From positions 2,469,909 to 2,533,908 of the forward strand of contig NZ_MQWC01000004.1 of NCBI RefSeq assembly GCF_002954405.1: a stretch of DNA of 64,000 nt. The letters run 5' to 3'. Shown piece by piece: positions 16,561-27,087 of the stretch. The notes beneath the pieces were generated by a model. It had not been told where the DNA came from. It searched no databases and saw only the letters and a program-made list of their open reading frames with translations. This stretch comes from Salinibacter sp. 10B. GTDB taxonomy: Bacteria; Bacteroidota; Rhodothermia; Rhodothermales; Salinibacteraceae. The first letter of the stretch is position 1. Every line of letters starts with the position of its first letter. A program made the translations under genes and the position numbers.

Positions 16561-18267
16561 ATGAAGACAATCAGCACCCAGCTCTCCTACTTTTTGGAGG
16601 ACCGCGCCGTCCAGCGCAATCTGTGGTTGCTGGTGCGCTACGTGCTCCTCCTGATCGCGGTCATCTTCGTGTTCACGGTGGGTTTTCACTTCATCATGCT
16701 GTACGTGGAGGGGGAGCAGCACTCGTGGATCACTGGACTGTACTGGACCCTCACGGTGATGAGCACGCTCGGCTTCGGGGACATCACGTTTCAGTCCGAC
16801 ATTGGCCGGCTCTTCAGCGTCGTCGTACTGATGACGGGGATCGTGATGCTGCTGATTGTGCTGCCGTTCGCGTTCATTCGCTTCTTCTACGCCCCGTGGC
16901 TGGAGGCCCAGATTCGCAATCGTGCCCCTCGTGCCCTCCCGGCCGACACTCGTGACCACGTCATTCTTTGCCACCATGATCCCATTGCCAAGGGGGTGAT
17001 CGACCGGCTGGAGCGGGACGACATTCCGTACGTGGTGCTGGAGCCCGATCCGCGAGCGGCCGGGGACCTGCTCTACGACGGCGTGACGGTGATGGCAGGA
17101 AATACCGACAGCCGCGACACCTACGACGCCGCGCGTGCATCCCAGGCGCGATTCGTTCTCGCCAACCAAGGCGACGTCGACAACACCAACGTCACGCTCA
17201 CGGTACGCGAGGCAGCCCCCGACGTGCCCATCGCTGCCATCGTCAACGACGACGATTCACAGGACATCTTGGAGCTGAGCGGGGCTACGCACACTCTCCC
17301 CATCAAGCGGTGGCTGGGCGAGCAGCTGGCCAGTCGTATTAATGCCCAGCACGCCGAACTCCATCCCATCGGCCAGTACCGTGACCTCCGGTTTGCCGAG
17401 CTGCCCGTTCATAACACCCCGCTGCAAGGAAAATCCATCCGTGAGGCTGGGCTGCGGGACAAGTTTGGGGTGACCGTGGGCGGAGTGTGGGAGCGCGGCA
17501 CCTTCCGTGCGGCACAGCCGGACTACACACTGGGCCCGTCGAGCGTGCCGGTCGTAGTGGGCACGACCGACCAGCTCCAGCGACTGAACGAGCGGATCTC
17601 GCCGTACGACGTGAATCCGAATCCTGTGCTCGTGATCGGTGGTGGAACCGTGGGTCGGGCGGCCGTTCGCACGCTGAGCCAACGGGACGTGCCGGTGCAC
17701 CTCGTGGAGCGCAATCCGGAGCGATGCCAGGCCCTGCGCCCGCACTGCGAGGCCGTCTTCCAGGGGGATGCGTCCGAATACACGCTGCTGCGCAAGGCGG
17801 GAATCGACGATGCCCCATCGGTTCTCCTCACGACCAACGACGACGCCGTCAACATCTACCTCGCCTCGTACTGCCGCCGCCTCAATCCCGAACTCCGTGT
17901 GGTAAGTCGCATCACGCACGAGCGCAACCTGGAGGCCATCCACCGCGCCGGAGCCGACTTCGTGCTCAGCTACGCCACCCTGGGGGTCGAGGCCGTCTAC
18001 TCAGCCCTCAAGGGCAAGCGGCTCGTGGTGCTGGGCGAGGGCGTCGATCTTCTTACGCGCGACGTCCCCTCTTCGCTTCGGGGACGCACGCTGGCGGAGA
18101 GCGAGATCGGCGCACGCACCGGCCTCAACGTCGTCGCTATCGAACACAACGGCACCTTCACGACGGACCTAACGGCCGATTCGACGCTCCCCCCGAACGG
18201 ACGCCTCATCATGATCGGCACTGATGCCCAGGCGTCAACGTTTGTCGAACAGTTCGAGCAAGAGTAA
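16561..18267 (+). CDS. Two-transmembrane potassium channel with two RCK (TrkA) domains
   Basis: The protein has 568 residues. TM1 (about 22-48) and TM2 (about 82-108) flank a pore loop with selectivity filter TLGFGD (residues 69-74) in place of the common TVGYGD. RCK1 begins at [13 protein letters not shown], where the usual GxGxxG nucleotide motif is not preserved. A TrkA-C domain follows ([18 protein letters not shown]). RCK2 starts at [14 protein letters not shown] with an intact glycine motif and an acidic LVERNPERC end. The second TrkA-C domain is at the C-terminus ([20 protein letters not shown]). It should control K+ flux, central to a salt-in halophile. No transporter gene is adjacent. 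Confidence 0.9.
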
Positions 18268-18448
18268 GGAAGAAAGCACTTGACATCGCGGGGCGACCTC
18301 CGGTCAGGCGCTCCACACTTTCATAACCGAAGCCTGCCACAGGACTCGGTATAGCGCTATATCCCCAGCCTCTGCCTCATGCTGGGCCGCCCCCCTGCTT
18401 GTGAAAAGAGGGGCAGATTCAAAATCCACGGTATCGCGTCCGTCCAAC

Positions 18449-19453
18449 TCAGAACTTCGAAAAGTCGAGGATGCGGAAGATGTTGAAACCGAGCCGGAAT
18501 TGCCCTTCGTAGATGTTGCCGGGGGCCAAGTCCCCCCCCGACAGGTATTGATCCGTGGACAGGCCAGCGTTGTTGCTGGCCACAACCTGAAAGACGTGCC
18601 CTTCGGTCGTGACCTCGATCCCAGCACTCCAGGTGGCGTAGCGCGTGGCGCCGGTGACGGTGCGATCAGAACGCGAAAGGATGGGAATCCACTCGGCCAC
18701 GAGGGCCACCTTTTCCTGAAGTTTCAACCGCGCTCCGAGCCCGAGAGTAACGAGGGGAGCCTCCCCGCTCACGTGCTCGTCTGGGTTCAGGGTTAGCCCC
18801 GGCACGACGGCCAGCCCAAGCCGCTCGCCGACCGTGCGGGTCAGGGTGACCTGGACGGTCTCCTTAAACGCATTGCCCCGCCACTGAGACTCGTTTGGAC
18901 GATCCTCAGTGAGCCAGTTGGCAGCCCCTTGGACGGAGAGCCCCAGAGGACTGGCGCCCGCCTCCTCCATCAGCCGGTACCGCATCTCCAGCTCGACGTT
19001 ATCATCGGAATTCGAGCGCGCCAGGGCCACGAGCCACTCGTCAGTGAGGGCGTATCCTAAGCTAAGATAGATGACAGCCGGCCCGTCGAGGCCGTAGAAT
19101 GCCGAATACCCTTCGCTCACGGCTGGGTTGAACCGGTGGCTGATCAGGAAGAGCCAGTTTCCGCCCTTCAAGGTCCGGTCCGTGGGCACGTTGATCACCT
19201 TCCAGCCGCTGAACGGCATCGGATCCTCGTACAGCCGAGTGGTATCACTCTCTGTGCTCGCAACGCCCGAAGAGTCCGGCGGCGTTCCTCCCGTAGCACG
19301 GGTGGGGACTTTTTGCGCCCCCGGCGCGGGCTGTGCCGCCACTCCCACAGGAAGTCCACTTGCGAGGAAAAGTCCCGCCGTGATAACGATCGACGGTATG
19401 CGAAACAGAGCGCAAATTCGTGTCCGCACGGTCAAACAAAAGTCTAGAAGCAT
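18449..19453 (-). CDS. DUF5777-like outer-membrane beta-barrel protein
   Basis: The protein has 334 residues. A hydrophobic export segment ends near PVGVAAQ (about residue 40). A disordered linker (about 41-75) is followed by LFLISHRFNPAVSEGYSAFY, GLDGPAVIYLSLGYALTDEW and alternating amphipathic strands to the C-terminus, which ends in aromatic LGFNIFRILDFSKF, an outer-membrane insertion signal. This fits the DUF5777 family of Bacteroidota, which often sits beside YceI genes. It starts 10 nt after the YceI-like gene, so the two are cotranscribed. It is the last member of the ECF-controlled operon; its substrate is unknown. Confidence 0.72.
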   Translation of the reverse strand: MLLDFCLTVRTRICALFRIPSIVITAGLFLASGLPVGVAAQPAPGAQKVPTRATGGTPPDSSGVASTESDTTRLYEDPMPFSGWKVINVPTDRTLKGGNWLFLISHRFNPAVSEGYSAFYGLDGPAVIYLSLGYALTDEWLVALARSNSDDNVELEMRYRLMEEAGASPLGLSVQGAANWLTEDRPNESQWRGNAFKETVQVTLTRTVGERLGLAVVPGLTLNPDEHVSGEAPLVTLGLGARLKLQEKVALVAEWIPILSRSDRTVTGATRYATWSAGIEVTTEGHVFQVVASNNAGLSTDQYLSGGDLAPGNIYEGQFRLGFNIFRILDFSKF

Positions 19454-19463
19454 GATCGGGGGG

Positions 19464-20564
19464 TCAGTTGCTCTCGTGGGTGGAGACCGGACGCGACGAG
19501 TGAGAGGACACCTCCTGCAGAATGCGCCGCAAGTCGCGCCGGGCCGTCCAGTCGGCCGAAAAGCGCGCCGTCCCCACGGTGGCCGTCACGGTAAGCGCCT
19601 CCGCAAGGGTTTCGAATGCCGGGCGCGTCACGTACATCCGCAAAATTTCGACGATCGTTTCGTCGTCGAGCCGCCGTTGCGAACTTTCCACTCGATACGG
19701 TTCCACCGAGTGCCGATCCGCCGTGAGTGTGACGGTCCGTGCGTCCGCAAGCCCAATCGGCTGGTCGGCAAATCCGTAGAGGGCAACCATCCACGTCCAC
19801 TCTCCTCCTGGCGACCGCCGGGCCTCGGCATATACGCTTGCACTATTGCCTGCATACTCAAGGGGGATCACGCTCCGAAGATCGGTGCTTGCAATGCTCT
19901 GCGTTCCAGTCCTCTCGCTGCGGTCCGCCTCGATGCGTCCGGTCCCCCCCTCAACCGACGCGATCGCCCCCGACACTCGAGCATCGATCCGAACGGTGTC
20001 GCCGATGGGCGCCATCCAGAGAAGCTCCGGACGCTCGACGTCGAACCGGGTTAAAGACACTGGAAAACGCGCCCGGGCGTGAACGCTGTCGTCAGTCGTT
20101 CGGACGCTCACCTCGGCTTCCACCGGGTGCGTCTGCCCGTGGAAGGTAAGATCACCCGTCGTCCGCCACCGGCCGGCGTGGCCCCCGGCGGTACGGCCCC
20201 ACTGGACCGGCTGAACCTCAGTCGTGCGAAACTCCACAACCGGGTACGTCTCGGCCTCGGTGACCTCACGCATCCGGCGGTCGCGCCGGTTGGGTCCGCT
20301 CTCGAAGCTGGCAACGGGAACCCGAACGACGACGCGGCTACTGTCGGGCGTGTCGAGGTCGAGCACCATCGTTCCGGACACGTCGCGGCTCGTTCCGGTC
20401 CAGTCGTGCAGCGTGGCCGAGCCGGTGTAGTCAATCACGCTGGCCGTGGAATCAACGGTGGCGGCTACGCGCTGGGCACAGGCCTCCATCGGTTCTAAAA
20501 GGCTCAGTCCACACGCGAGCAGAAGAAATGAGATACTGGCAACGAACGGGCTCGCTCTTAACAT
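19464..20564 (-). CDS. YceI-domain periplasmic protein with an extra C-terminal domain
   Basis: The protein has 366 residues from the ATG at 20564, which gives the signal peptide MLRASPFVASISFLLLACGL to EACAQ. Residues about 35-195 are a YceI lipocalin-like barrel: SVIDYTGSATLHDWTGTSRD, MREVTEAETYPVVEFRTTEV, GDLTFHGQTHPVEAEVSV and SLTRFDVERPELLWMAPIGD. YceI proteins bind polyisoprenoids in the periplasm. Residues about 200-366 form an additional region (SVIPLEYAGNSASVYAEARR, WTWMVALYGFADQPIG, RRLDDETIVEILRMYVTRPA) that I cannot assign; ordinary YceI proteins end before it. It lies 70 nt after the cupredoxin gene and 10 nt before DUF5777. Confidence 0.8.
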   Translation of the reverse strand: MLRASPFVASISFLLLACGLSLLEPMEACAQRVAATVDSTASVIDYTGSATLHDWTGTSRDVSGTMVLDLDTPDSSRVVVRVPVASFESGPNRRDRRMREVTEAETYPVVEFRTTEVQPVQWGRTAGGHAGRWRTTGDLTFHGQTHPVEAEVSVRTTDDSVHARARFPVSLTRFDVERPELLWMAPIGDTVRIDARVSGAIASVEGGTGRIEADRSERTGTQSIASTDLRSVIPLEYAGNSASVYAEARRSPGGEWTWMVALYGFADQPIGLADARTVTLTADRHSVEPYRVESSQRRLDDETIVEILRMYVTRPAFETLAEALTVTATVGTARFSADWTARRDLRRILQEVSSHSSRPVSTHESN

Positions 20565-20634
20565 GAGAACAGAAGACCATTGGAGAGCAGTACGAGAGGA
20601 CCACCGGTGCCGACGAGGTGCGTGTCGTCCGCCC

Positions 20635-21219
20635 TCAATATCCTCCGCCTCCGCCGGACGAGCCTCCACCGGAGGAATCCTCAATCCCCATCTCGCCACC
20701 CATGTAGACGTGATTGCCGCACTGATAGAAGAGCTGATCGGGGGCATCGGAGGGGACGGAAAAGGTGACAGTCCCCGTCGTGGCCTGCGCGTTCTCGACC
20801 CCGTCGTTGTACTCGTCGCCTCCCCCGCCCTCTGCCGAAGTCCCGACGTAGAAGGGATGAGGCAGGTCGTTCGGCCCACTGTCGACGCTCGATTCGAGCT
20901 CGAACGCGTACGTCTTCCCGCGCTCAAGCGTGATTACTGCTCCCACTTCCCCGTCAATCGCGTAGGCCACCCCAACGTTGTTCTGTTCACTATAGGGATA
21001 GCTGCTGTCAATTTCCTGAACGGTCACCGTGTAGGTCTGCGCGACCTCTTCTCCATTGCCTCCCCCGTTTCCGGTTCCGTTCTCGCCGTTTTCTGAGCCC
21101 GTTCCGCCACTGTCGCAGGCCGCCAGTCCTCCAACCACAGCCACTGCGAGAACGAGGTTGAGAAGGCATCGAACTGTGGCTCGAATCAATCGGAACGAGG
21201 CGATTCGGTGTAGTCGCAT
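20635..21219 (-). CDS. Cupredoxin-like lipoprotein
   Basis: The protein has 194 residues from the ATG at 21219. A lipobox (VVGGLAAC, Cys35) anchors it to a membrane. A Gly/Asn/Glu linker precedes a single cupredoxin-like domain with candidate type-1 copper ligands His (LPHPFYVG) and Cys-His-Met (YQCGNHVYMGGEM, spaced CxxHxxM). A Gly/Ser-rich tail ends the protein. It could pass electrons or carry copper at the cell surface. It begins 165 nt after the TonB-receptor gene and has its own copy of the 35-bp upstream element (21311-21345), so it can be transcribed from an internal promoter of the operon. Confidence 0.8.
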   Translation of the reverse strand: MRLHRIASFRLIRATVRCLLNLVLAVAVVGGLAACDSGGTGSENGENGTGNGGGNGEEVAQTYTVTVQEIDSSYPYSEQNNVGVAYAIDGEVGAVITLERGKTYAFELESSVDSGPNDLPHPFYVGTSAEGGGGDEYNDGVENAQATTGTVTFSVPSDAPDQLFYQCGNHVYMGGEMGIEDSSGGGSSGGGGGY

Positions 21220-21310
21220 GGTACTAGAGCGTGCATTGATGTGTAGACGGAAACGACGAGCCGCCGGCAACCAGCCCATCGTGCATCCGTCCAGCACGCG
21301 ACATCCCGCA

Positions 21311-21345
21311 GATGACTACCCCAAAACATGAAGACTTCGCGAACA
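21311..21345 (-). promoter_or_regulatory. 35-bp regulatory element, copy 2, upstream of the cupredoxin gene
   Basis: Read on the minus strand it begins TGTTCGCGAAGTCTTC, continues ATGTTTTGGGG and ends TAGTCATC. It matches copy 1 (25840-25874) at 29 of 35 positions. It ends 91 nt before the cupredoxin start codon, inside the gap after the TonB receptor. The core GAAGTCTTC is palindromic. It could be an ECF promoter or a repressor/activator site. Confidence 0.7.
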
Positions 21346-21384
21346 GAAAAAATTTTGGAGCGAGCGCGTCTCACCTACCCACTG

Positions 21385-24138
21385 TCAATAGCGCACTGTA
21401 AGGCCGCCCACCGCGCGACGACCCGGAAGCCGCCGCGTCGTGCGGGTCATGCCGTCGTCCGTGGGCCGGACGCCCCAATCGAAAGGATTCGCACGGTCGA
21501 AGACATTGATGACATCGAGCCGAGCCTCCAGGACCAAATCGCTCCACTGCAGGGTGTAGCGGAGGCCGAGATCGAGGCGCATACGGGGAGCCAAGACATG
21601 AGTAGAAGGCGCATTCAGCGACCGTCCGAGAACGGCCTCGATGTCCGACTGCCCACCGAGATAGTCGTAGTAGGTTTGCCGAAAGCCCCAGCTACGTCCC
21701 CATCCCCGCTCGCCTCGCACCATGAGCCGAAGAGCCTCGGTCGCCTCCATCTCGGTCGACAACGAGAGGCGGTGCGGCTGATTCCAGGGCACCGGCACCC
21801 GTTCCCCTCCAAAGCGCCCAGGAAACCGGCGATGGGACCGGCTCCAATCATACCGGAGCGTGGTCTGCAGAAGCGGCCCGTCTCGGGTGAGGGCGAGTCC
21901 GCCCCCGAGGGCGTATCCGTCTGTCGCAGCGATGGCGTCGGACGGGGCGACAGAAGTGCCAGGGTCTCCCTCCAGCGCAGTGTAGTCGAGTGACAGGAGG
22001 TGGGCATAGTGCTTGTAGTACGCTTCACCGGCGATCCGCCACCGGTCGTGGGGCCGAACGCGCCCGTTAAGGGCAGCGTGGTAGGCCCTCGGCGGGGCAT
22101 GGCCCGCCCCCACTGGCAGCCAGAAGCGCATGGACGGCAGGATGGCCGTGGGACTCGTGCTGCTGGCGTCGAACCGGTTTACGAACTGCCGGTAGAGGCC
22201 GACTGCTCCCCGCACAGCATAGGGACCAAGGCCGGGCGCTCCCCCCTCATGATGCAGTTGCGCGCGCGGCTCGGCGTAGAGGGTCTGCCGGATTGGGAGA
22301 TACGTGAGGCGTGTGCCGGCCGTGAGGGTTGTGTTCACGCTCAGCGACACCGCATCCCGAACATAGCCGCCGATCTGCCAGCGCGTATCCTCGAAGGCCG
22401 TGGGCTGGAGAAACCGTCCCCCCAGCCGGAACTGGCTCGTGAGGCGCGAGATCTCCACACCCCCCTTCAGATGATGGCGTGAGGTGACGGCGTACTGGCC
22501 CGTCGTTTCGAGGCTCAATTCCCGAATGCGGTTCCGGTCGTCGGGCCACAGGGACGGATCGAGGCTCTGCTGGAGCGAGTCGATGACGCCGTCGATGCTG
22601 TCGCCCGGGTCCGGATTTCCGTACGTCATCTGGTAGCCCCGATGCACTCGGTGCTCACTCGCCCGAAGCTGCACGGCGGCCGACGTACGGGCACCGAGCG
22701 TCCAGTCCACCCGCGCCTGCCCGGCGGTGTTGGCCCAGTCGTACCGGTCTTGCGTGAGCATGCCGGTGGGATCTTGCGCCACGAACTGGGTATGGAGGTG
22801 GTTGCGCCCCCGGTAGCCGGACACGGAAAGGGAACGAAAAGGGCCGAGATCGACGCGGGCGGCGGCGTGCAGGTCGGAAAAGCCTACGTCGGCCGTCTGC
22901 GCAACGGGCGAGAAGGCCGGCAGATCGGTGCCATCGCCGAAGTAGGACGATAGCAGCATCGGATCGACCACGTTCCACTCGCGCAGGAGGCGGTCGAGGG
23001 TCGGGTCCTGGTACACGTCCCACACGCTCGACCGCGCCGCTACACGCAGGTGGGCGCTGCGTCCTTCTCGAAGGTCGATCGAGCCATGCCCTTCCGCGTT
23101 CACGCTCATCGGATCGAGCGTGACTTCGCCATAGGTCGGGGTGCTCGTACTCAACGCGTGCTCGGCCGACACGATGCCCGAGATGGTGCTCCCGTGTTCG
23201 ACCCCAAAGCCCGCCTTTCGGACCGTCAGCCGATCGAGGGCCAGTGGGCTGAATGCCCCCAAGAGACGGCGGAGCGTGACGGGGTTGCGGATGGGCATGC
23301 CGTCGAGACGCACCTCGTGCTCACCAGCCCCGCCTCCCTGTACGTGCAGATCAGCCCGTGGAAACTGCCGGTACACGCCCATCCGGGTCCCGGCCCGGCC
23401 CAGCACGTCGGGCGTCCCCATACGTCCGGTCTTTTTGAGCTCGCCGGCCCCGAGAGACGGGGCGCCGAGGCCGTCCTCCGGCCCATGCCGCTCTGCGCCA
23501 TCCACCACGATGGGCTTGGACGCGAGGGCCGTGGGCTCCAGCGTAATGCGACGCTCCACACGGTCGCCGGGAAGCACACGGACACTATCGACCGCCGGCT
23601 CGTAGCCAAGGTGCGTGGCCACGACGCGATGGACGCCCGAGGTAAGTCCCGGCACCTGGAAGCGCCCGGCCTCGTTGCTCGCGGCGCCCGTGTTGGCAGT
23701 AGCGAGAATAACGTGAGCGTGGGAAAGCGGCTCGCCGGTGCGCGCGTCTACGACGATGCCGGTGAGGTCGCCGCGAAGCGACGGCTGCCGTGGGGAGTCC
23801 GTGAGTACGTAGGTGCCCCCTGAGGTCTCATAAAAGTCGAGCGCCACGTCCGCCAGGAGGCAGCGCAGCAGATCTTCTGGCGTCGCGTCACGGGCCGTGC
23901 AGTACACCTGCCGTCCCTGCACCAGCTCTGAGTCGTACACCAGGTTGATGCGAGTCGTCTCCGCCACGCGGCCGAGGGCCGTCTCCAGCGCCACGTCCCG
24001 AAACATCATGGTGTAGCGGGGCGCCTCCGGAGCCTGCTGGGCGTGAAGCGGGGGGAGTGCTCCGCCGCCGAGTCCCAGTACGAGGCCCAAGAGAATGCCC
24101 CCAACCTGCAGGGCTGGAAATCGAACAGATCGGGTCAT
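21385..24138 (-). CDS. TonB-dependent receptor with STN signalling domain
   Basis: The protein has 917 residues. Signal peptide to about 34 (LPPLHAQ); secretin/TonB short N-terminal (STN) domain about 40-115 (FRDVALETALGRVAETTRIN, ATPEDLLRCLLADVAL); carboxypeptidase-regulatory domain about 122-205 (GIVVDARTGEPLSHAHV); then plug (EVRLDGMPIRNPVTLRRLL, GVEHGSTISGIVSAEH) and a barrel ending LTVRY. The STN domain is the usual contact for a FecR anti-sigma factor, which is encoded immediately upstream with a 4-bp ATGA overlap. It should import a scarce ligand and signal its presence. No SusD partner is present, and the ligand is unknown; metal or a metal chelate fits the neighbouring cupredoxin. 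Confidence 0.93.
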   Translation of the reverse strand: MTRSVRFPALQVGGILLGLVLGLGGGALPPLHAQQAPEAPRYTMMFRDVALETALGRVAETTRINLVYDSELVQGRQVYCTARDATPEDLLRCLLADVALDFYETSGGTYVLTDSPRQPSLRGDLTGIVVDARTGEPLSHAHVILATANTGAASNEAGRFQVPGLTSGVHRVVATHLGYEPAVDSVRVLPGDRVERRITLEPTALASKPIVVDGAERHGPEDGLGAPSLGAGELKKTGRMGTPDVLGRAGTRMGVYRQFPRADLHVQGGGAGEHEVRLDGMPIRNPVTLRRLLGAFSPLALDRLTVRKAGFGVEHGSTISGIVSAEHALSTSTPTYGEVTLDPMSVNAEGHGSIDLREGRSAHLRVAARSSVWDVYQDPTLDRLLREWNVVDPMLLSSYFGDGTDLPAFSPVAQTADVGFSDLHAAARVDLGPFRSLSVSGYRGRNHLHTQFVAQDPTGMLTQDRYDWANTAGQARVDWTLGARTSAAVQLRASEHRVHRGYQMTYGNPDPGDSIDGVIDSLQQSLDPSLWPDDRNRIRELSLETTGQYAVTSRHHLKGGVEISRLTSQFRLGGRFLQPTAFEDTRWQIGGYVRDAVSLSVNTTLTAGTRLTYLPIRQTLYAEPRAQLHHEGGAPGLGPYAVRGAVGLYRQFVNRFDASSTSPTAILPSMRFWLPVGAGHAPPRAYHAALNGRVRPHDRWRIAGEAYYKHYAHLLSLDYTALEGDPGTSVAPSDAIAATDGYALGGGLALTRDGPLLQTTLRYDWSRSHRRFPGRFGGERVPVPWNQPHRLSLSTEMEATEALRLMVRGERGWGRSWGFRQTYYDYLGGQSDIEAVLGRSLNAPSTHVLAPRMRLDLGLRYTLQWSDLVLEARLDVINVFDRANPFDWGVRPTDDGMTRTTRRLPGRRAVGGLTVRY

Positions 24139-25172
24139 GGAAGCCGAGACGCTTGCGTGTCACCAGCGCGCGAGAGCACGAAGCCGTTGGCCGTGGACCG
24201 ATACGTCAGATTGCGAGCCATGCAAATGTCGTGGAGAATCTGTTCGAGGTCGGCATTCTGCGCGTAGTAAAGCGTGAGCGGTGCCGTGCGCATGGACTCT
24301 GAAATCGACGCATCCAGCTGAATAGTCTGCCCAAAGCGTCGTTCAAGGGCCTCGGCAAGATCGGGCAGAGGGGCGCCCGTCACGGCAAACCCCCCGCGCC
24401 GCCACACCGTCACCCGGTCGATGCTGGTGTCGCGCACTGCCGTCAGCGGACCGGTTCGTCCCACAGTCACGGCCTGTCCGGGTTGCACGGATGTCGTTCG
24501 GGCGTTGGCGGTCCGTCCCGTGACGCGGAGCTGCCCCTCGGCGAGGGCCACGAGCGTCCCTTCTTCTTCATCGACCCGACTGTTCACCGAGAAAGACGTA
24601 CCCACGACCTCAATTTGGGCCGTCGGCGTTTGCACCACGAACGGGCGGACGCCGTCCTCGACCTCAAAGAAGGCCTCACCGCGGAGGCGGACGAGGCGCC
24701 GCTCGGACTGTAGCAGAGAGACGGTTGAAAACGTCCGGTCGTACGCGAGGCGCGAGTCGGCATTGAGCTCCACTGTCGAGCCGTCCGGAAGCGTGTGCGT
24801 GACCGTAGCGCCGGGGGCCGTCCGCACGGAAAGGGGCCGCATCCACCACCAGCCGGCGACTGCAAGCACCAACAGGACGGCCACGGCACTGCCCCACCGC
24901 CATCGACGCTGCTGCGCCGAGGGGCGTGCCGAGCTTCGGTCGGCTGGGTTATGATCGTCCGCGCGACGCTCATTCTCTTCGCTGCTCCCCTCAATGTGCT
25001 CGCGCACCCCCGCCCAGGTGTCCTCCGCCTCCGGCAGGTCCTCATCCGACGGAACAGCGTCATCCAGAAGATCCCACACCTCCTCCAGATCCGACGACTG
25101 CTGACCGTCGGAACGGTGGCCCTCCAGGACCTCCCGGAGCTCAGGGGGAATGTTCGATTCGTCGCGGCTCAT
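24135..25172 (-). CDS. FecR-family anti-sigma factor
   Basis: The protein has 345 residues. An acidic cytoplasmic N-terminus (about 1-88), which should hold the sigma factor, precedes one transmembrane helix (about 92-110, GSAVAVLLVLAVAGWWWM). The periplasmic FecR domain follows: THTLPDGSTVELNADSRLAY, RRLVRLRGEAFFEVEDG, PFVVQTPTAQIEVVGTSFSV. A STN-like C-terminal segment is present (PLPDLAEALERRFGQTIQLD, NADLEQILHDICMARNLTYR). It relays the state of the STN receptor to the ECF sigma factor. It overlaps both neighbours by 4 bp, so the three proteins are probably translated as a unit. Confidence 0.93.
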   Translation of the reverse strand: MSRDESNIPPELREVLEGHRSDGQQSSDLEEVWDLLDDAVPSDEDLPEAEDTWAGVREHIEGSSEENERRADDHNPADRSSARPSAQQRRWRWGSAVAVLLVLAVAGWWWMRPLSVRTAPGATVTHTLPDGSTVELNADSRLAYDRTFSTVSLLQSERRLVRLRGEAFFEVEDGVRPFVVQTPTAQIEVVGTSFSVNSRVDEEEGTLVALAEGQLRVTGRTANARTTSVQPGQAVTVGRTGPLTAVRDTSIDRVTVWRRGGFAVTGAPLPDLAEALERRFGQTIQLDASISESMRTAPLTLYYAQNADLEQILHDICMARNLTYRSTANGFVLSRAGDTQASRLP

Positions 25173-25735
25173 GACGAAAGGTGGTCTGCGTGATGGGAGC
25201 GAACCCAGCGGCGAAGCTTTTTCAGGGCCTCCACAATGTGATTGTTCACGGTGCGGGGCGAAATGTCCATCACCTCGGCGATGGCGTCGTGGCTCAGGCC
25301 CTCGAACCGGCTGAGGGTGAGCGCCTCCCGCTGCCGGTCGGGGAGTTCGTCGATCCGTAACCGGAGGTCGGCCGCCAGTCGATCGGCATCCATCTGCGCT
25401 CCGGCATCTGGCTGGACCGGCCCTGTGTCGCGCTTGATTTCGTCGTGCTTGGCCGCTCGATTTCGTCGATCGCGCTCCGCGTTGTAGGCCCGGTTCCGCA
25501 CGAGACGGAAGAGCAGCGCCTCTAGCGACTCACTGGGGTCAAGGTTCTCCCGCATGTCCCAGAGCGTCGTGAACGCGTACTGCACAATGTCCTGCGCGAC
25601 GGCCGTGCGCCCCGTAATCTGGAGAGCGTAGCGGGCCAGTGGATCGTGGAGGGCATTGAACACGGCCCGGAACGCCTCGCGGTCGGAGGCCTTGATGCGG
25701 CGGCACCACGTCGCAAATTGCTCGTCGGTTGGCAT
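25169..25735 (-). CDS. ECF-type RNA polymerase sigma factor (FecI-like)
   Basis: The protein has 188 residues from the ATG at 25735; the frame extends upstream, but family members begin near this point. Sigma region 2 is seen in DIVQYAFTTLWDMRENLD and ALLFRLVRNRAYNAERDRR. Region 4 is seen in ELPDRQREALTLSRFEGLSH and the helix-turn-helix AIAEVMDISPRTVNNHIVEA. It should direct RNA polymerase to the local operon when FecR is released by the receptor. One 35-bp element lies 104 nt upstream of its own start, consistent with autoregulation. Its stop overlaps the FecR start. Confidence 0.94.
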   Translation of the reverse strand: MPTDEQFATWCRRIKASDREAFRAVFNALHDPLARYALQITGRTAVAQDIVQYAFTTLWDMRENLDPSESLEALLFRLVRNRAYNAERDRRNRAAKHDEIKRDTGPVQPDAGAQMDADRLAADLRLRIDELPDRQREALTLSRFEGLSHDAIAEVMDISPRTVNNHIVEALKKLRRWVRSHHADHLSS

Positions 25736-25839
25736 AAGGACATCGCAACGGCCGTGTCGAACGGGAACGGCTCCGTATCGAGGATCGTCTTCTCTATCCG
25801 TTTTCCGCGGGGGACCTCTCCAGCACGCAGACAGCGGGG

Positions 25840-25874
25840 AATGACCACCCAACAACACGAAGACTTCGTGAACA
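25840..25874 (-). promoter_or_regulatory. 35-bp regulatory element, copy 1, upstream of the ECF sigma gene
   Basis: On the minus strand it begins TGTTCACGAAGTCTTC, continues GTGTTGTTGGG and ends TGGTCATT. It contains the perfect palindrome CACGAAG-T-CTTCGTG. It shares 29 of 35 positions with copy 2 (21311-21345), and the spacing to the start codon (104 nt) is close to that of copy 2 (91 nt). Confidence 0.7.
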
Positions 25875-26044
25875 CATAGACGAAAGGAAGGACAAAAATG
25901 GTCCCTGAGGCAAAAACGAGCGACGCCTCCTCCAGCACGGGGATGTGCTGAAGGAGTCGAAGAGATCTTTTTGCGATACTCGATCCTGTGTCGGTATCTT
26001 CACGGGCGAACGCGCATTCCCAACCACAATTCCACCTTCTACTC

Positions 26045-26206
26045 GTGGCAGATTCCTCGACCCGCAATCTCGGTCTTCGCATTCTGGGCGTGTGGCTTCT
26101 CCTCTGGGCGCTCTTCCGCTTCGTCGACCTCTCATTCGCCTACGACCACCTTGTGCTTCCCATCCTGGGCCTCGTGGCCGGGGTCCTGCTTATTATCGGC
26201 AGCTAG
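26045..26206 (+). CDS. Small two-helix membrane protein
   Basis: The protein has 53 residues from a GTG start. The product contains NLGLRILGVWLLLWALFRFV and YDHLVLPILGLVAGVLLIIG, two transmembrane helices joined by a short polar turn. Small proteins of this layout (NLG.ILLG.WLIL then a Gly-rich second helix) recur in Bacteroidota; no function is known to me. The frame is open upstream to about 25988, but that part is not hydrophobic or conserved-looking. It is divergent from the ECF operon and ends 23 nt before a strong terminator, which supports a real transcript. Confidence 0.6.
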   Translation: MADSSTRNLGLRILGVWLLLWALFRFVDLSFAYDHLVLPILGLVAGVLLIIGS

Positions 26207-26229
26207 GGACCTACGTCTTTTCCCCAACG

Positions 26230-26277
26230 TGCCCCACACTGCTGTGCCCCCCACGGGGCAACGGTGTGGGGCATTTT
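26230..26277 (+). terminator. Rho-independent terminator after the small membrane protein
   Basis: TGCCCCACAC (26230-26239) and GTGTGGGGCA (26264-26273) are perfect complements; TTTT follows directly. An inner GCCCC/GGGGC pairing is also possible in the loop. It closes the plus-strand small gene. Confidence 0.8.
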
Positions 26278-26306
26278 GGATTTGACGGCTCGAACTGCCT
26301 CTCAAT

Positions 26307-26341
26307 AAAAAAGCCCCACCTCCGGTGACGGAAGGCGGGGC
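26307..26341 (-). terminator. Rho-independent terminator after sdhB
   Basis: On the minus strand GCCCCGCCTTCCG pairs imperfectly with CGGAGGTGGGGC and is followed by TTTTTT (26312-26307). It lies 23 nt beyond the sdhB stop and closes the gltA-sdh block. Confidence 0.8.
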
Positions 26342-26364
26342 GAGGAGAGGGAGAGCAGAAACCA

Positions 26365-27087
26365 CTAGGCCTTCGTCGAGGCCTGAGAAGTCGCAGCGCG
26401 GCGCTTGAGGGCCGAAAGCCAGCGCGTGATGTCGATGTCCTTGGGACAGGCCTCGTTGCAGTTGAAGATGGTGTAGCACTTCCAAAGGCCGTCCGGCGAG
26501 TCCACTACATCGAGTCGCTCTTCGGCGCCGTCGTCGCGACTGTCGAACGTGTAGCGGTAGGCCTTGAGCATGGCCGCGGGGCCGAGGTAGTCCGGATCCG
26601 CCCACGTAGAGGGGCACGCGTGTGTGCACGCCCCGCACATGATGCACTTCGTCGCGTCCTCGATGACCTCATGCTCTTCGGGACTCTGCTCGCGCTCACG
26701 CTCCGGCGCCGGGCCATCGGTGATGAGCCACGGCTTCACGTCGCGGTACTTCTCAAAGAAGCGGCTCTGATCGATGACGAGGTCCTTCACGACCGGGGCA
26801 GAAGGGAGAGGCGCAAACGTAATCGTGTCGCCGTCCCCACTCACGAGATCTTTCACCAGCACCGAGCAGGCGAGTTTATTCTCACCGTTGATCTGCATGG
26901 CGTCGGAGCCACAGATGCCGTGCGCGCAACTCTTGCGAAAGGAGAGCGTGCCGTCCTCGTGCCACTTCACGTGCAGGAGGAGGGAGAGAGCACTGTCAAG
27001 TGGCTCAGCCGGCACCTCGTAGGCTTCCCAGTGCGGCTCGTCGTCCTCATCAGGATTGTAGCGCTTGATTTCAACAGTAAGGTCCAT
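26365..27087 (-). CDS. sdhB: Succinate dehydrogenase iron-sulfur subunit
   Basis: The protein has 240 residues. The [2Fe-2S] site is CAHGICGSDAM with a further Cys in NKLACSVLV. The [4Fe-4S] site is CIMCGACTHACP, and the last cluster uses CYTIFNCNEACPKD. It passes electrons from FAD in SdhA to quinone in complex II of the TCA cycle and respiratory chain. It is the last gene of sdhC-D-A-B, 100 nt after sdhA across a word-repeat inverted sequence, and is followed by a terminator. The C-terminal tail is short and alanine-rich. Confidence 0.97.
   Translation of the reverse strand: MDLTVEIKRYNPDEDDEPHWEAYEVPAEPLDSALSLLLHVKWHEDGTLSFRKSCAHGICGSDAMQINGENKLACSVLVKDLVSGDGDTITFAPLPSAPVVKDLVIDQSRFFEKYRDVKPWLITDGPAPEREREQSPEEHEVIEDATKCIMCGACTHACPSTWADPDYLGPAAMLKAYRYTFDSRDDGAEERLDVVDSPDGLWKCYTIFNCNEACPKDIDITRWLSALKRRAATSQASTKA

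Follow-up and report, generated by a model that had tools for sequence, protein, structure and literature searches.

The 64,000-nt stretch of Salinibacter sp. 10B DNA analyzed here (the window; contig NZ_MQWC01000004.1, positions 2,469,909 to 2,533,908) comes from a member of a salt-loving bacterial group and encodes a FecI-like extracytoplasmic function (ECF) sigma factor, a FecR-like regulator, an outer-membrane receptor and, further along the same strand, cupredoxin-like, YceI-domain and DUF5777 proteins. A conserved 56-nt unit, TGTTCRCRRAGTCTTCRTG-N8-TRGTCAT-N12-GCGTGCTGGA, lies ahead of the sigma gene (25819-25874) and again ahead of the cupredoxin-like gene (21290-21345), both times on the minus strand. 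These are likely to be two copies of one composite ECF promoter, in which the sigma factor reads the core of each copy and an upstream box adds the input of a second regulator. By its pattern of conservation the unit is made up of two parts, a 5' 19-bp box and a 3' -35/-10 core. All of the evidence is comparative sequence, and the three copies of the module on which it draws come from two genomes, one of which is a metagenome-assembled genome (MAG). A search of the literature found no description of this promoter motif, the predicted motifs of the published ECF classification having been left out of the comparison.

A first-pass annotation of this DNA had described a duplicated 35-bp element, 21311-21345 and 25840-25874, matching at 29 of 35 positions on the minus strand. 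This match was confirmed, and in 12 shuffles of the upstream regions (like the other shuffles below, first-order Markov samples rather than exact dinucleotide shuffles) the best 35-nt match reached only 18-23 positions. The distances given to the start codons are also correct, namely 91 nt to the ATG at 21219 and 104 nt to the ATG at 25735. With the start codons used here, both copies are outside coding sequence, as stated. Mechanically derived open reading frames that begin at upstream GTG codons extend to 25858 and 21297, and promoters at these places would exclude the earlier starts. The element as first drawn contains the -35 but has the wrong boundary, leaving the -10 outside: identity resumes 12 nt past GTCAT with GCGTGCTGGA, which is the same at 10/10 positions in the two window copies and whose CGTG occupies 21295-21298 and 25824-25827.

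In the genomes searched, the unit is restricted to this regulon. With up to three mismatches, the 21-nt core is found at two sites in the 4.75 Mb genome of the host, both of them the window copies, and a 38-nt pattern occurs twice in the window, where none is expected. The full module, again with up to three mismatches, has three sites in two of 114 genomes of the order and none in a backwards control, so that the wide or unrelated occurrence proposed as a check on the element was not seen in these 114 genomes. The third site (L056, 527-582) belongs to a same-genus MAG (G008; record JAHENZ010000069.1, Salinivenus sp.) and precedes the orthologous sigma gene, as the earlier interpretation had anticipated; this is the sole clear orthologue found. 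An exact gapped-pattern scan across species, which may leave out the window's own record, returned three records, one of which is this MAG orthologue. The remaining two matches fall within long open frames of an actinobacterial and a Chthonomonas MAG and were attributed to chance. Matches to the 21-mer with three mismatches in eight other genomes of 60 were also set aside, with no continuation into the module.

The 3' half is probably the sigma factor's own -35/-10, because the core recurs ahead of homologous sigma genes and its form goes with the recognition helix of the sigma factor. The first upstream set held 31 FecI-like sigma homologues, comprising one best match per genome from 30 genomes and the own-genome paralogue. 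The strict form TRGTCAY-N12-SCGTG starts 73-112 nt ahead of the sigma match in 13 of these 31 genes (chance about 0.0002 per 400 nt). A de novo word-pair search of 30 upstream regions, from which L021 was excluded as a near copy of L020, ranked GTCA-N14-CGTG first with 14 of 30, against maxima of 3-6 in 30 shuffles. The core also stands upstream of the own-genome paralogous sigma gene at G000:C4:1424551, and GCGTGCTGGA is identical at 10/10 positions across the three module copies. Within the host genome the strict core has seven sites, against one in the backwards control: the two window promoters, the paralogue promoter, three sites in long open frames and one other. Among 26 sigma-locus stretches scanned, 15 hold one core site (with a loose last base) and none holds two; within them, therefore, the internal copy is particular to the Salinibacter sp. 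10B genome. A housekeeping-type promoter was rejected, since a sigma-70-like scan, which does not cover Bacteroidota-type promoters, found no site at either element. Relatives of the sigma factor outside the class were not found at E<=1e-28 in the 148 genomes of the phylum that were sampled.

A second promoter form emerged from a further set of 40 mostly more distant homologues, two of which have the strict core. A blind search of this set ranked TTGG-N19-TGTA first (12/40, compared with 4-7 in 20 shuffles), which corresponds to TTGGGTA-N15-GTGTA, that is, a different -35 at an equal distance from GTGT. Over the 71 FecI-like sigma genes of the order, 17 are preceded by GTCA-N14-CGTG and 11 by the second form; L040, counted under the second form, would also fit the first if CGTA were accepted in place of CGTG. 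The two forms sort with one residue of the recognition helix in region 4, which is Arg (PRTVN) in 17/17 sigma factors of the first form and Lys (PKTVN) in 11/11 with TTGG.TA-N15-GTGT. This position of xP(R/K)TVN sits in the part of the sigma factor expected to contact the -35. The helix was left unread in nine rows, none of which has a motif. Eight K-type and many R-type sigma factors have neither form. The second-form sigma factors belong to another FecI-like clade (L031, L037, L038, L040, L125, L126, L136, L138, L139, L148 and L152). A third FecI-like sigma factor of the host genome (L156; G000:C4:2745693-2746220), with the helix SPKTVNNH, has neither promoter form upstream, and members of its clade differ at the Arg/Lys position, with N, S, H or K there.

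The 5' half is probably the site of a second DNA-binding regulator. In the sigma-operon copy the box contains a perfect 7+1+7 palindrome, CACGAAG-T-CTTCGTG. When the three module copies are aligned on the -35, their boxes agree at 17/19, 17/19 and 15/19 positions; the 150 other pairs among 18 promoters agree at no more than 10/19 positions there, except for L020/L021 (17/19), which are alike throughout. The best control is the paralogue promoter in the same two genomes, which keeps the core and matches at 5/19 at the box position. The distance from box to -35 is 8 nt in all three copies, and the most constant stretch is AGTCTTCRTG. The box thus appears to be under a constraint of its own at a constant distance from the -35. 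The inverted-repeat pairs are kept at 7/7 in the sigma copy and 5/7 in each other copy, with different pairs lost, a pattern compatible with, but no proof of, a dimeric protein that tolerates variation in its half-sites. Exact box sites in the two genomes (G000 and G008) are the three module promoters only. The box as a dispersed repeat was rejected, as the extra sites at three mismatches, 5 in G000 and 8 in G008, are close to the 3 and 9 of the backwards control. In the genomes searched, the box was found only within this regulon, at the two window promoters and at the promoter of the orthologous sigma gene in the MAG. The palindrome had earlier been offered as a dimeric regulator site in place of a sigma promoter; the two alternatives now appear as adjacent parts of one module, the palindromic box being separate from the -35/-10.

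The whole unit, including the box, might instead be read by the sigma holoenzyme alone, through sigma and the alpha C-terminal domains, with no second regulator. The fixed 8-nt spacing and the constant company of exact box sites and core in the two genomes would suit such an arrangement. However, other promoters of the family have the core without the box. Furthermore, alpha-binding DNA is usually A+T-rich, which the box is not, and its centre, about 18 nt upstream of where the -35 begins, is farther out than a sigma factor usually reaches. This explanation is considered rather unlikely. A further possibility concerns the origin of the internal copy. Because the N8 spacer is identical at 6/8 positions between the window copies and at 1/8 against the MAG copy, duplication of the upstream part is suggested, and a recent duplication of the sigma promoter would leave the box shared by ancestry and not by function. 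Yet the box is kept at 17/19 in the second species while the spacer matches at 1/8 and the upstream flank at 6/18, and the control promoter of the paralogue in the same genomes shows no comparable agreement. Duplication may be the origin of the copy but leaves its retention unexplained, and shared ancestry as the explanation of the box is improbable. That the element is solely the operator of a dimeric regulator, unread by the sigma factor, is very improbable: the perfect 15-bp palindrome of the sigma copy speaks for it, but the palindrome is broken in the other two copies, and GTCA-N14-CGTG beside it is the motif that the de novo search recovered from the promoters of homologous sigma genes. 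An RNA element (riboswitch or thermometer) in the 5' leaders, which would be about 70-85 nt long if transcription starts just below the -10, can practically be dismissed: 18000-27000 gave no Rfam match at gathering score, element and leader together fold hardly better than shuffles (z -1.5 and -0.16), and most of the conserved bases are upstream of the point where transcription is expected to start.

For the composite promoter with two inputs, we infer the following course of events, in which the reading of both promoters by this sigma factor, the signal path through receptor and FecR and the action of the box binder are all proposed. Engagement of the receptor would cause FecR to release the FecI-like sigma factor, which would direct RNA polymerase to TRGTCAT-N12-GCGTG(CTGGA). 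The first copy would drive the sigma-fecR-receptor operon, giving positive feedback, and the second copy would drive the cupredoxin-yceI-DUF5777 genes as a separate output unit. The box, fixed 8 nt upstream of the -35, would be bound by a second, probably dimeric protein that touches or gates the polymerase, and this protein would keep the regulon apart from the paralogous sigma factor, whose own promoter has the same core. The earlier proposal of autoregulation together with an internal promoter for the cupredoxin-like, YceI and DUF5777 genes gains support from the core upstream of homologous sigma genes and its sorting with the recognition helix, although binding by this sigma factor is predicted from comparison.

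Several observations weigh against this mechanism. The strict core precedes just 15 of the 71 homologues (13/31 and 2/40), and 43 of the 71 have neither form. In 10 further loci, of which eight come from other orders of the class and two from the same order, neither motif as defined was found; one sigma homologue among the eight (L182) has the near form TGGTCA-N15-GTGTA. A single change on the tree suffices for each motif, so that the association of helix and -35 could be explained by descent alone and may represent one evolutionary event rather than independent support. The palindrome is imperfect in two of the three copies and is broken at different pairs. No candidate box regulator was found among the neighbouring genes, beyond which the search did not go. 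Finally, the sigma frame of the MAG (L056 671-1215, G008:C69) is interrupted by a stop and a frame change, for which decay and sequencing error are indistinguishable, and its promoter may be a relic.

A broader proposal, which we put forward only tentatively, joins two ideas. Paralogous FecI-type sigma factors would share TRGTCAT-N12-GCGTG and nearly the same helix, with a locus-specific box and a dedicated regulator choosing among promoters, so that two keys are needed; and the single Arg/Lys position of the helix would re-target the -35 from TGGTCA to TGGGTA with the spacing to GTGT unchanged. If true, such a two-key promoter would insulate a copper/electron-transfer regulon from the paralogue.

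By gene content the locus is a predicted FecI-FecR-receptor system with a cupredoxin-like/YceI/DUF5777 unit (Table 1). The sigma factor scores above the TIGR02985 cut-off and is adjoined by a FecR-domain anti-sigma factor (PF04773, PF16344), and a common putative -35/-10 stands ahead of the sigma gene and ahead of the putative target, the pattern expected of autoregulation. Sigma, FecR and receptor genes form one string, followed by a 165-nt gap with the second copy of the unit and then by the cupredoxin-like, YceI and DUF5777 genes.

Table 1. Predicted genes and promoter parts at the locus (window coordinates).
Feature	Position	Strand	Basis
FecI-like ECF sigma factor, 188 aa	25169..25735	-	TIGR02985 130.2 bits (cut-off 126.4); Sigma70_r2, Sigma70_r4_2
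FecR-like anti-sigma factor/regulator, 345 aa	24135..25172	-	PF04773 1.2e-16, PF16344 FecR_C 3e-6
Outer-membrane receptor, probably TonB-dependent, 917 aa	21385..24138	-	CarboxypepD_reg 9e-15; homologues encoded next after FecR in related loci
Cupredoxin-like protein, 194 aa, lipoprotein-type start	20635..21219	-	HPF...YQCGNHVYMGG, type-1 copper-like ligands by eye
YceI-domain protein	19464..20600	-	PF04264 4e-24
DUF5777 membrane beta-barrel protein	18449..19453	-	PF19089 1.4e-44
19-bp box, sigma-operon copy, TGTTCACGAAGTCTTCGTG	25856..25874	-	17/19 against cupredoxin copy, 17/19 against G008 orthologous promoter
Putative -35 of sigma-operon promoter, TGGTCAT	25841..25847	-	Family motif upstream of homologous sigma genes
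Putative extended -10 of sigma-operon promoter, GCGTGCTGGA, N12 after -35	25819..25828	-	CGTG in family motif
19-bp box, cupredoxin copy, TGTTCGCGAAGTCTTCATG	21327..21345	-	Pattern searches and promoter alignment
Putative -35 of internal promoter, TAGTCAT	21312..21318	-	Core-site match, promoter alignment
Putative extended -10 of internal promoter, GCGTGCTGGA	21290..21299	-	Promoter alignment

The receptor has a possible N-terminal STN-like domain (residues 64-113) below cut-off (E 0.25); no plug or barrel match was obtained for the window protein, and two homologues gave sub-cut-off matches. For the cupredoxin-like protein there is no Pfam or NCBIfam assignment above cut-off, and a fold prediction from the lone sequence (predicted local distance difference test score 39) is too poor for fold inference; the label follows from the H, C, H and M residues, which are conserved in six homologues from other genomes, and not from a family or fold match. 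A divergent gene for a small membrane-type protein, 26046-26207 (+), used as a 54-codon query, lies beside the sigma operon and is present in the host genome and G008 only among 13 genomes of the genus.

In the MAG, the promoter module is complete and fecR is an open frame with 77% identity; relatives of the receptor and of the cupredoxin, YceI and DUF5777 proteins were not found on the 7.4-kb contig. Both the module and the divergent 54-aa gene are missing from the remaining eleven genomes of the genus; three of the 13 are 62-83% complete, and absence there is weak. On the cupredoxin side, for which the first-pass annotation had also proposed a search of orthologues, no orthologous gene in the same setting was found, and the seven stretches (L107-L113) with cupredoxin-like homologues, from six other genomes, have no core site near these genes. 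The order sigma-FecR-receptor recurs in related genomes. Genome G013, from a different genus of the family, has a string of sigma, FecR and receptor genes (L063, 1653-10278) that is followed by genes for a 492-aa protein, a Rieske protein and a small protein lacking any Pfam match, and then for YceI and DUF5777; the core site is found only before the sigma gene. YceI-DUF5777 is therefore associated with this type of signalling in two genera, with Rieske beside one and a cupredoxin-like protein beside the other, and the two arrangements are possibly a recurring redox module. In another FecI-type locus, a gene for a fasciclin-domain protein (L071, 1759-2685) follows the receptor.

The core provides a sequence-defined promoter class for FecI-type sigma factors of Rhodothermales, and its pairing with a recognition-helix position makes specificity addressable by point mutation. 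With two promoters and six genes the regulon is small, and a second conserved input seems to be built into its ECF promoter, which makes it a convenient setting for studying how cross-talk between paralogous ECF sigma factors is avoided.

The fecA promoter of E. coli is of the GGAAAT type, from which the core TRGTCAT-N12-GCGTG differs, and sigma, FecR and receptor genes are in a single string here, unlike in E. coli Fec. The relatives of this sigma factor, confined to the class in the sampling described above, also set it apart from Bacteroides systems. As in E. coli FecI-FecR-FecA, an ECF sigma factor is combined with a FecR regulator and an outer-membrane receptor as the expected signal input (PMC9249621). 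In E. coli, fecIR transcription is reported not to be autoregulated, with FecI acting on fecA, whereas at the present locus the sigma gene has the family motif in its own upstream region (PMC9249621). Bacteroides ECF/anti-sigma/SusC systems likewise have anti-sigma control via an STN-bearing outer-membrane transporter, the STN match here being below cut-off (PMC7782687). Unlike those systems, there is no SusD gene among the genes assigned at the locus, and the putative targets are cupredoxin-like, YceI and DUF5777 genes (PMC7782687). B. thetaiotaomicron SigW-1 and SigH-1 belong to the ECF251 and ECF114 groups, and no upstream 19-bp box appears in the excerpt of that study used for comparison (PMC12596196). 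In the same study, TGTT is noted near the -10 at ECF-linked promoters, with the SigW-1 motif called non-significant, and CGTGTT/CGTGTA at the present locus resembles it (PMC12596196). The SigW-1 and SigH-1 regulons described there also extend to more than one promoter, as proposed here, and the SigH-1 iModulon is additionally acted on by a further regulator, Cur (PMC12596196).

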